DNA of 26,078 bases from a virus. Where the stretch lies: positions 1 through 26,078 of IMG/VR virus record IMGVR_UViG_3300044825_000304, one strand, 5' to 3'. Positions 23,689 to 25,541 of this stretch are shown here, one piece after another; the first letter of the stretch is position 1; the number at the start of each line of letters is the position of its first letter. A model generated the notes under the pieces. That model had not been told where the DNA came from and ran no database searches. It saw only the letters and a list, made by a program, of their open reading frames with translations. Made by a program: the position numbers and the translations under genes.

Positions 23689-23949
23689 GGCCTCGGCGCA
23701 AAAGCCCGCGAAACCGCGTCGCCATAACGCGAAAGTCCGATAATCTCCATTATGTCATATGCAACCTTGTGCATAAGCGTGTGATATCAATAGGTTAGCG
23801 ATATGAGGCCTTGGCGATGACATTATGCGGGCCGATATCCGCCCGATAGGTCCAGATTGGTGCATCGTACGAAGCATCGGTGAGGTATCTGGATACCCCA
23901 TCCGACCCCTCGGCTCGCCCGCCCGCGCGTGAGGCGGCGTGTCTGTCGC

Positions 23950-23993
23950 GGCCCCATACCATCTCAATACCACGACCATACCATCACCATACC
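23950..23993. repeat. Four 11-bp tandem repeats (iteron-like)
   Basis: Plus-strand units are GGCCCCATACC (23950-23960), ATCTCAATACC (23961-23971), ACGACCATACC (23972-23982) and ATCACCATACC (23983-23993). All end in ATACC and three share CCATACC, with exact 11-bp spacing, about one helical turn, so a protein could bind all units on one face. A partial unit (AATCACC) runs into the stop codon of the 74-aa gene. Confidence 0.7.
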
Positions 23994-23995
23994 AA

Positions 23996-24220
23996 TCACC
24001 GCCTCTTCATCGCCATGTACTCGAACACCCCGTCACCCACCTTCTTGCAGAAGAGCAGGCATATGCCCCTATCGCTCGCGGAGAGGGCCGAGAAACGGTG
24101 TACTCCGCCGCAGTGTGGTCCCACATGGTAAACCACAAGGTCGCCCCTCTGGCAGCCCTCTAACGCGCGGAAAACGGCATCCGACTTTGTCTCCCCCGTG
24201 ATGTAGATCTTCTCGCGCAT
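23996..24220 (-). CDS. Hypothetical protein, 74 aa
   Basis: The protein MREKIYITGETKSDAVFRAL continues EGCQRGDLVVYHVGPHCGGV, HRFSALSASDRGICLLFCKK and VGDGVFEYMAMKRR. It has an alpha/beta appearance with a GDLVVYHVG strand-turn and a C-terminal FEYMAMKR reminiscent of small phage proteins with a winged or SH3-like fold. The ATG overlaps the upstream stop (ATGA). I do not recognise the family. It is the last gene before the noncoding region. Confidence 0.6.
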   Translation of the reverse strand: MREKIYITGETKSDAVFRALEGCQRGDLVVYHVGPHCGGVHRFSALSASDRGICLLFCKKVGDGVFEYMAMKRR

Positions 24221-24795
24221 CAGATGTCCTCCAACATGTCGAAGTCCGCATCCAGCTCACTCGGCTTACGACGGACTGCCTTCACTTCCGCTCCGGGGAA
24301 CGACAGCTTCACCGCGTTGACCAATCCGTTGCGATGCTCATGCAGCGCCACCGCCACCTCACGCATGGTATGGATCGCAATGCCGGGCCGCTTGGCGTAG
24401 GCCGCAGGCCACTCTCTGCCATCCTCAATGATGCCGTACACCACGCCCTCATACTCATGCTCCCAGATCATCGGATCGGACACAGGCACGCCAGCCGCCG
24501 TCGCCTCGGCGTCCATCGCCTGCATGCCCCTGATGCACACCTCCACCCAGAACTTCACCTTGTCCGCATCCTTGGCATCGATGGCACCATTCAGGCCAGC
24601 CATCGCCTTGCCCCACTTCGCCGCGCTCTCGACCGACACCAACTCGGGCAGACGGTCCACGCCCCACTTCTTGTCCATCTCTCTCGCCGCGTGATCGAAC
24701 GGTGCCAGCGATAGGTCCGCCCTGATCTCCTCCGCCGTCGCGCCTTTGGTCAGGATGCGGTCATCCTTTTTTTTGCGTGCTGGTCTCTGCGCCAT
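24220..24795 (-). CDS. Hypothetical protein, 191 aa
   Basis: A basic N-terminus (MAQRPARKKKDDRILTKGAT) is followed by a helical protein with EMDKKWGVDRLPELVSVESA, AIDAKDADKVKFWVEVCIRG and the segment MIWEHEYEGVVYGIIEDGRE. Proteins of this pattern occur upstream of terminase genes in other phages, but I know no function. AGGAG lies 7 bases before the ATG, a context very like that of terS. It is ATGA-coupled to the 74-aa gene. Confidence 0.65.
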   Translation of the reverse strand: MAQRPARKKKDDRILTKGATAEEIRADLSLAPFDHAAREMDKKWGVDRLPELVSVESAAKWGKAMAGLNGAIDAKDADKVKFWVEVCIRGMQAMDAEATAAGVPVSDPMIWEHEYEGVVYGIIEDGREWPAAYAKRPGIAIHTMREVAVALHEHRNGLVNAVKLSFPGAEVKAVRRKPSELDADFDMLEDI

Positions 24796-24824
24796 CGTGT
24801 GTCTCCTCTCTGGCCATCTTTATG

Positions 24825-24951
24825 TTTACTCACCTCACCCTCAAGTTAGGGTCAGCAAAACCCTTCCTCAGGCCCCTAAACCCCCCTTTAGGGGGGTAGG
24901 GGCTTGAGGAAGGTGTTTGACCTAACTTTTATACTCACCTTTCCTCAAGTT
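24825..24951. repeat. Direct repeats and TTCCTCARG words flanking a palindrome
   Basis: Two 23-base direct repeats with few differences, beginning TTTACTCACCT at 24825-24847 and TTATACTCACCT at 24929-24951 and both ending CCTCAAGTT, flank the large palindrome. The 9-mer TTCCTCARG occurs five times nearby: 24864-24872, 24903-24911 (inverted), 24941-24949, 24952-24960 and 24972-24980 (inverted). The last three lie in the 3' end of the 162-aa gene. Confidence 0.7.
24843..24928. terminator. 86-bp imperfect palindrome; possible terminator or origin element
   Basis: The left arm 24843-24886 (AAGTTAGGGTCA ... CCCCCC) and right arm 24891-24928 (GGGGGG ... TGACCTAACTT) pair around a TTTA loop, with blocks of 6, 5, 10 and 8 or more pairs interrupted by small bulges. 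Read leftward, the core stem is followed by GGGTTTTGC, so it could act as a Rho-independent terminator after the 162-aa gene, whose stop codon lies in the right arm. It is longer than terminators usually are. Confidence 0.6.
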
Positions 24952-25410
24952 TTCCTCAGGTTCAGACGCAGCCTGAGGAAGGTTTGGGACGACGTAAATC
25001 GGTATCTGCCTGCCCTGTCTGGTGTCGTTGTCGTATGCCTTTTGTATCGCCCCGACGGCCAGCATGATCTCAATGGCACGCTCAGCTGAATCGCGCTGTT
25101 CCGGCGCTGGCAGGATCTCCCACTGCATCGCCCTGATGACCGCGATGCCAGCCCACTTGGGAGATTGCGCCGAGGCCCTGATCAAGCCCTCAGAGACCAT
25201 CAGGTCTGTGATGCGATGCATGTCCTCATCTGACAGCATGATGACGCTCTTCTTGGCACGCTCCTGCTCTGCGCGCTGCTCGTCCAGCATCCACTGCTCG
25301 ATCTGCGCCTCTACGGCCCGCAGAGCCACGATCTGCAGCCTGACGGCCTCCAGCTTTGATTTGTGTGATTTGTTGCCAATCAAGGCGTGCGTGGTTACGC
25401 TGTCGATCAT
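24922..25410 (-). CDS. Helical protein with possible winged-helix part, 162 aa
   Basis: The start is placed at the ATG at 25410 because GGAGG lies 5 bases upstream; a longer frame begins 24 codons earlier without such a site. The N-terminal half (KSKLEAVRLQIVALRAVEAQ, then EQWMLDEQRAEQERAKKS) is likely a coiled coil. The C-terminal half (HRITDLMVSEGLIRASAQSP, RAIEIMLAVGAIQKAYDNDT, RQGRQIPIYVV) could form helix-turn-helix or winged-helix units. Its last codons carry three TTCCTCARG repeats and run into the palindrome. A DNA-binding replication or regulatory protein is a guess from this layout. Confidence 0.6.
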   Translation of the reverse strand: MIDSVTTHALIGNKSHKSKLEAVRLQIVALRAVEAQIEQWMLDEQRAEQERAKKSVIMLSDEDMHRITDLMVSEGLIRASAQSPKWAGIAVIRAMQWEILPAPEQRDSAERAIEIMLAVGAIQKAYDNDTRQGRQIPIYVVPNLPQAASEPEENLRKGEYKS

Positions 25411-25541
25411 TGCGACCTCCGTCCGGGTTGTGATCAGGAGGGCGGCCATTGCAGTGGCGCGCCCTCCACCTGAGTAAGCCACACGGGCGGCGGCAGGTCA
25501 ACCCACCACCACCCGCGCGTTATGCATCTTGTGAGGTGAGG

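Follow-up and report, generated by a model that had tools for sequence, protein, structure and literature searches.

What is the function of the long palindrome that lies between two genes of the phage sequence studied here? The window, by which we mean the whole stretch of DNA analysed, is a virus record of 26,078 bases in which the recognised packaging and structural genes are on the minus strand. A sequence-only reading had described the palindrome as near-perfect, 86 bp long with a four-base loop, framed by 23-bp direct repeats, accompanied by five TTCCTCARG words and holding the stop codon of the upstream gene in its stem. It had proposed a replication origin or a multi-site operator rather than a mere terminator, had named the 162-aa protein as a possible binder, and had suggested folding, GC-skew and conservation as checks. 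Our analysis leads us to the view that the element is likely, with a probability of about 0.82, a phage replication origin whose iterons would be read by a domain of the phage's own helicase or by a stand-alone relative of that domain. The features on which this reading rests are the following.

24220-24795, minus strand: 191-aa gene of unknown function, just downstream of the element, a conserved neighbour
24825-24847, no strand assigned: first copy of the 23-bp direct repeat (far-side word block), from the alignment
24828-24845, minus strand: far-side words CTTGAGG-GTGAGG-TGAGT, singly CTTGAGG (24839-24845), GGTGAGG (24833-24839) and GGTGAGT (24828-24834)
24843-24928, no strand assigned: near-palindrome (hairpin or dyad) of 86 nt with words inside its arms
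24864-24872, minus strand: word CCTGAGGAA, in a hairpin arm
24881-24896, no strand assigned: hairpin tip CCCCCC-TTTA-GGGGGG; the tips of relatives are CCCCTAAAGGGG, CCCTTTAGGG or of an AT-rich kind
24903-24911, plus strand: word CTTGAGGAA, in the opposite hairpin arm, inverted
24922-25410, minus strand: 162-aa gene, with wing DTRQGRQ and a 3' end encoded by words
about 24930-24952, no strand assigned: second copy of the 23-bp direct repeat, with one internal gap, from the alignment
24933-24939, minus strand: GGTGAGT, a near-copy of the GGTGAGG word of relatives
24941-24949, minus strand: word CTTGAGGAA, flanking array on the side of the 162-aa gene
24952-24960, minus strand: word CCTGAGGAA, flanking array, within the 3' end of the 162-aa gene
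24972-24980, plus strand: word CCTGAGGAA, outermost inverted copy, within the 3' end of the 162-aa gene

First, the anatomy is established. The palindrome forms 37 base pairs around a TTTA loop at 24887-24890, and when positions 24800-24970 were folded as DNA, none of 200 dinucleotide shuffles folded equally well (z = -6.40). The five CTTGAGGAA or CCTGAGGAA words, both of the form TTCCTCARG, begin at 24864, 24903, 24941, 24952 and 24972, with the strands split three to two; allowing one mismatch, the window contains 13 matches, whereas 100 shuffles gave 3.77 on average and never more than 8. The stem includes the stop codon of the 162-aa gene (24922-24924, minus strand). Folding, alignment and word count thus confirm what the sequence-only reading had described, with two corrections. 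The palindrome is imperfect, its longest ungapped arms being 29 nt at 83% with mismatches near the base, and the direct repeats, which an ungapped repeat finder missed, agree in 19 of the 22 positions aligned and need one internal gap (counted by eye from the alignment). The element is an array of words of about 7 bp around a hairpin whose own arms hold words.

A strong hairpin between co-directional genes could be a transcription terminator or an mRNA hairpin. We consider this very unlikely. No hairpin followed by a T run is present at the palindrome, the only terminator-like match lying elsewhere, and the words outside the hairpin, their coordinated change and their association with the wing (see below) would not be expected. 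Nor does an RNA family account for the element: the Rfam matches were below the gathering threshold and nearly all to microRNA precursors, as any long hairpin gives them.

The comparison with relatives showed that what is conserved is the architecture of the element and not its sequence; the carriers are phages and phage-like plasmids, mainly from Alphaproteobacteria. Three scans for the 191-aa gene gave 91, 214 and 125 confirmed relatives, of which the best 80 each were kept; once duplicates were removed, 88 distinct loci had at least 150 bp upstream. Most of these follow the same plan with a different word, so that conservation does not refute the earlier reading. The plan consists of an inverted copy, then about three direct copies at a spacing of about 10 bp, then a hairpin whose arms contain the word and whose tip usually resembles CCCC-TAAA/TTTA-GGGG, and finally further copies. 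All copies within a genome change together: the word is CTTGAGG in the window and elsewhere GGTGAGG, GGTGGGG, GGTGTGG, GGTGCGG, ACTGTGG, TTTGTAGT (as in Roseobacter phages CRP-811 and CRP-823), GTTACAAG or a GCGCC word. When the window is compared with locus L110, two 60-bp bins of the intergenic core match at 100%, against identities of 91.1% and 89.5% for the two flanking genes. A search of 24200-25500 found no DNA similarity to named phages. Consensus folding of 12 elements preserved pairing through double changes in 8 of 18 pairs with an unfavourable covariation term, but the alignment was poor and one of the sequences (L355) had been cut from the wrong stretch.

The module formed by the helicase gene and the element is shared by circular phage-like plasmids of Microvirga, Rhodoplanes and Methylobacterium. 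Four such plasmid records (L218-L221) are circular, of 31-54 kb and labelled 'non-mobilizable'; some of them look like phage-plasmids, since terminase and portal genes (L220) or a tape measure gene (L221) are annotated beside the module. It was also found on contigs of mainly alphaproteobacterial genomes, one carrier being labelled a Verrucomicrobiota MAG; in two genome contigs (L224 and L225) no array was seen.

Which protein reads the words? The 191-aa protein was considered and rejected. It remains about 83-85% identical to that of the window in loci with quite different words (for instance L012, L019 and L032), and a protein that is nearly constant while the words differ is not the specificity partner. 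Its gene is also dispensable for the link between helicase and word. The product has no Pfam, NCBIfam or PHROG family match, and a search of genome contigs with its profile found none. As a separate observation, a run of eight A at the start of this gene (24763-24775, AAAAAAAAGG on the minus strand), also present in L002 and L003, is a possible slippage site; it creates the only terminator-like match, on the other strand. Further on, the intergenic region before the small terminase gene (23940-23998) has GGTATGGT/GGTGATGG-like repeats that vary among relatives.

The element is instead located directly, or a few genes, downstream of a phage RepA-like helicase gene in the relatives, and directly after the primase/helicase gene in the Roseobacter phages. 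The genes beside it encode the helicase, an SSB-like protein (so named by analogy with annotated Roseobacter genomes) and an exonuclease. The window itself stops short of the helicase gene, and its helicase is inferred from relatives L110 and G001. The helicase of the main family has about 771 aa with an AAA_25 domain, the only Pfam match at E <= 0.01; separate toprim genes lie beside the helicase in three of four plasmids. Its core resembles RSF1010 RepA both in sequence (E 2.7e-10) and in fold (Z 25.4, rmsd 3.3 A over 242 aligned residues). While the confidence of the whole model is moderate (mean pLDDT 67.0), the last 60 or so residues are modelled as helix-helix-strand-strand, the order expected of a winged helix. 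When helicase C-termini and words were tabulated, they sorted into matching classes. Three loci depart from this arrangement: in L120, L125 and L175 a different primase, and not the RepA-like helicase, is encoded ahead of the 191-aa gene, with the word GTTACAAG or GTTACAG; the L120 primase is weakly of the P4 family, and L175 is placed with it by similarity.

Where the helicase and 191-aa genes part, the repeats follow the helicase gene. Indeed, in eight loci without words upstream of the 191-aa gene, words lie directly after the helicase stop in all eight; seven share the word class of their C-terminal kin (L170 being the weakest, with 3 copies), and the eighth, L168, has a new word, GGTGCGG. 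Three other loci (L047, L136 and L163) carry two word sets each, GGTGTGC after the helicase stop and GGTGGGG before the 191-aa gene.

These positions bear on two rival explanations. According to the first, the element is a multi-site operator, the wing domains being transcription regulators of the 191-aa or packaging genes and the hairpin being secondary. In its favour, most loci have their words immediately before the 191-aa start codon, and stand-alone winged-helix proteins are similar to regulators in fold. However, the words stay after the helicase gene in all eight parted loci, the putative reading domain belongs to the helicase in most loci, and no sigma-70-like promoter was found at the element. 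Furthermore, ten of ten long relatives have one word cluster per genome, which disfavours scattered operators. We regard an operator as unlikely, so that of the two functions first proposed the origin is supported as much the likelier, although autoregulation could possibly coexist with it. According to the second, the element is a packaging (pac or cos) site, as the small terminase gene begins about 1.3 kb downstream in the window. This is very unlikely, since the word tracks the helicase wing and the position tracks the helicase gene, also in phage-like plasmids.

The evidence for the origin reading that concerns the reader of the words comes from the wing. Two scans confirmed 487 and 410 helicase loci, 80 of each being kept. 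A set of 307 helicase matches comprised 292 with a closed C-terminus, and these gave 157 distinct loci. Words of the form NNTGNG[G/C] were searched for at four or more copies in 270 bp and were found in 116 of the 157, while shuffled sequence, with one shuffle per locus, never gave more than three copies. Among the other 41 loci, 24 have another wing family with GCGCC words, five have the stand-alone domain with GGTGGGA or related words, two have less than 200 bp downstream, five have other or too few words (by eye), and none was found in the last five. The wing was read as D-x-X1X2-[GAS]-[RG]-[EDN], and four word-bearing loci without a readable wing were excluded.

In all 112 remaining loci, where the wing could be read and the word is of the GGTGNGG type, the X1X2 dipeptide agrees with the fifth base of the word. 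The base is A with RQ (45/45); G with KK (13/13), KH (2/2) and SK (1/1); T with RS (22/22), RK (11/11), RT (6/6), RA (2/2), RH (2/2) and KR (2/2, with the word GGTGTGC); and C with RD (4/4) and RN (2/2). Glutamine with A, lysine or histidine with G, and aspartate or asparagine with C are familiar pairings of side chain and base. Among all C-terminal columns, none predicts base 5 better than the second wing residue (normalised information 0.856). Both the coordinated change of the words and the association of wing and base 5 are shown by these data; binding is inferred from them.

A referee may ask how far this rule was fitted to the data. The rule as first noted, set down before the results for the new loci were known, was right in 37 of the 39 new loci that it covered, and 26 more had dipeptides outside it. 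Both misses were RH: a rule based on the second residue alone failed in these two loci, where the base is T and not G. The dipeptide rule was adopted for that reason, so the final rule is partly fitted afterwards. Nor does the wing account for the whole word. No single C-terminal column explains bases 1-2 (best 0.742), and the helicases of G001 and G007 are 97.7% identical while their words differ at these bases.

Since the loci are related, a tree was built from the helicase core, leaving out the last 115 residues of the protein. The 112 rows were reduced to 109 by length and to 108 by merging duplicates; one of them, plasmid L221, is long, and many branches are weakly supported. On this tree, base 5 changes at least 21 times, the dipeptide 27 times and the word 28 times. 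When independent pairs were restricted to well-supported branches, all agreed for A (6/6, p 0.03) and for T (8/8, p 0.008); those for C and G also agreed (4/4 each) but were too few for significance. A remaining rival is that wing and word are linked merely as co-recombining neighbours of one cassette, the wing not being the reader. This is supported by the position of most arrays immediately behind the helicase stop and by the clear exchange of modules. Against it, all 35 arrays that start at least 300 bp from the helicase stop still obey the wing rule, so the linkage of neighbours is insufficient. In addition, distant helicase clades show the same base again together with identical or chemically similar residues, and the wing residue outdoes every other C-terminal column. 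We thus find the cassette explanation unlikely.

In the window, a second candidate reader is the 162-aa protein. Its mechanical ORF has 186 aa (24922-25482), the likely start being the ATG at 25410 with GGAGG at 25416-25420, and the gene has two near relatives among viral contigs. The protein can be aligned with helicase C-termini, its residues 76-140 matching the helicase C-terminus of one relative (E 4.6e-5). It is a stand-alone relative of the winged-helix-like domain found at the helicase C-terminus, a homology that we consider demonstrated. Its structural model is good (mean pLDDT 83.9), and residues 58-147 look like a winged helix. The fold matches score weakly, with a best Z of 7.7 and no Foldseek match at E <= 0.001, and a sequence search of solved structures with the wing-domain profile gave only chance matches. 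The P4 alpha domain was absent from that search and also from the shown fold matches of the model, which does not exclude it.

Does the 162-aa protein read the words? The RQ of its wing agrees with the xxTGAGG words of the window, and the earlier suggestion that it binds them is close to the comparative result; in the absence of binding data its role remains inferred. The stand-alone domain lies downstream of the helicase in nine loci, and in seven of these (by eye) the word differs from the helicase-only word. CTTGAGG, the word of the window, occurs in L214 and L212, and GGTGGGA or AGTGGGA in L198, L275, L029, L259 and L249 (the last judged from part of its array), while L151 and L197 keep mostly GGTGGGG. 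Two further loci point in opposite directions. In L107 the words are CTTGAGG and the 15.4-kb fragment holds no intact 162-aa gene, which counts against a simple takeover of reading by this protein, whereas G007 combines a degraded remnant of the gene with GGTGAGG words, which favours it.

We can propose the following mechanism, for which there is no direct evidence of replication or binding. A long hairpin or dyad, with the word in its arms, would be flanked on either side by iterons of the same word. In most relatives, the reader would be the winged-helix domain at the C-terminus of the phage's RepA-like primase-helicase, with two adjacent wing residues recognising the fifth base. In the window and its close kin, the duplicated free-standing domain, the 162-aa protein, would probably share or take over this reading, the outer bases of the word having moved, in this scenario, from GG to CT or CC. 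Binding may gather helicases in opposite orientations around the palindrome, the centre of which would melt or extrude and so provide a site for loading and priming. The GC-skew check gave a mixed answer: in three circular genomes the distance between the detrended minimum and the hairpin tip is 326, 971 and 2538 bp, and in two Roseobacter phages it is about 4.6 and 4.8 kb.

There is a bolder reading, towards which we lean by a narrow margin. In it, phages and phage-plasmids would share a large family of origins that has so far gone unrecognised. The replicative helicase would recognise its own origin by a simple four-letter wing rule (RQ for A; KK, KH or SK for G; R followed by T, S, A, K or H for T; RD or RN for C), the specificity would have changed at least about 20 times, and free-standing copies of the domain, such as the 162-aa protein, would re-specify the origin. 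If this is true, the origin of an abundant phage group could be read from its sequence, two residues would predict part of the specificity, and the family would be a natural four-letter data set on the joint change of initiator and origin. Plasmids for Alphaproteobacteria could also be built from its replication modules, which would be matched and mutually exclusive. Why origins diversify would become testable; an origin-directed nuclease, as in PLE and ICP1 (PMC8263062), could drive the family.

How does this element compare with known systems? In the PLE of Vibrio cholerae, the DNA-binding domain of RepA and the origin covary and are swapped as modules, as shown by experiment, and an origin-directed nuclease was argued to select for swapped pairs of initiator and origin (PMC8263062). 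PLE differs by its unrelated RepA_N domain and its long semi-palindromic iterons, and the parts of that paper bearing on the question describe no residue-to-base rule. In the main text of the Roseobacter phage paper (PMC12629253), the words 'repeat' and 'hairpin' do not occur. We found no description of the wing-word rule in the open-access literature searched, which does not prove its absence elsewhere.

Berkner and colleagues showed that the origin of the archaeal plasmid pRN1 is a 100-bp stem-loop just downstream of the Rep gene, whose product has a C-terminal winged helix; the same arrangement was proposed for Bordetella phage BIP-1 (PMC4234260). The relatives studied here likewise have a stem-loop just downstream of a replication gene, with its structure kept and its sequence variable. 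However, pRN1 has an SF3 helicase and no iterons (PMC4234260), whereas here the helicase is RepA/RecA-like and not of the SF3 type, and iterons both surround the stem-loop and make it up, their word varying with the wing. In phage P4, the alpha protein alone is primase and helicase and attaches to origin repeats through a winged helix at its C-terminus (PMC4234260). The likeness lies in a single protein with these three parts, although here binding of the iterons is inferred and the fold match weak. The differences are the Toprim-type primase of P4 (PMC4234260), the placement of the origin and the helicase family, and only the L120 and L175 relatives resemble P4-family primases, weakly. At the oriV of RSF1010, three proteins, RepA, RepB' and RepC, share the work (PMC4234260). 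A RepA-type hexameric helicase (in the relatives), iterons and stem-loops are common to both, and the long hairpin present here might serve a cognate primase as the single-strand initiation hairpins ssiA and ssiB do. In contrast to RSF1010, the part that presumably reads the iterons either belongs to the helicase itself or is a free-standing copy of that domain, and the wing-domain profile gave no sequence match to a solved RepC. Altogether, by analogy and with its function inferred, the element would work like P4 alpha, RSF1010 and pRN1, combining features of all three while belonging to none. It would be the origin of a replication module that is widespread among phages, with a hairpin and with iterons specified by the initiator, its binding and origin activity being predicted from comparison.
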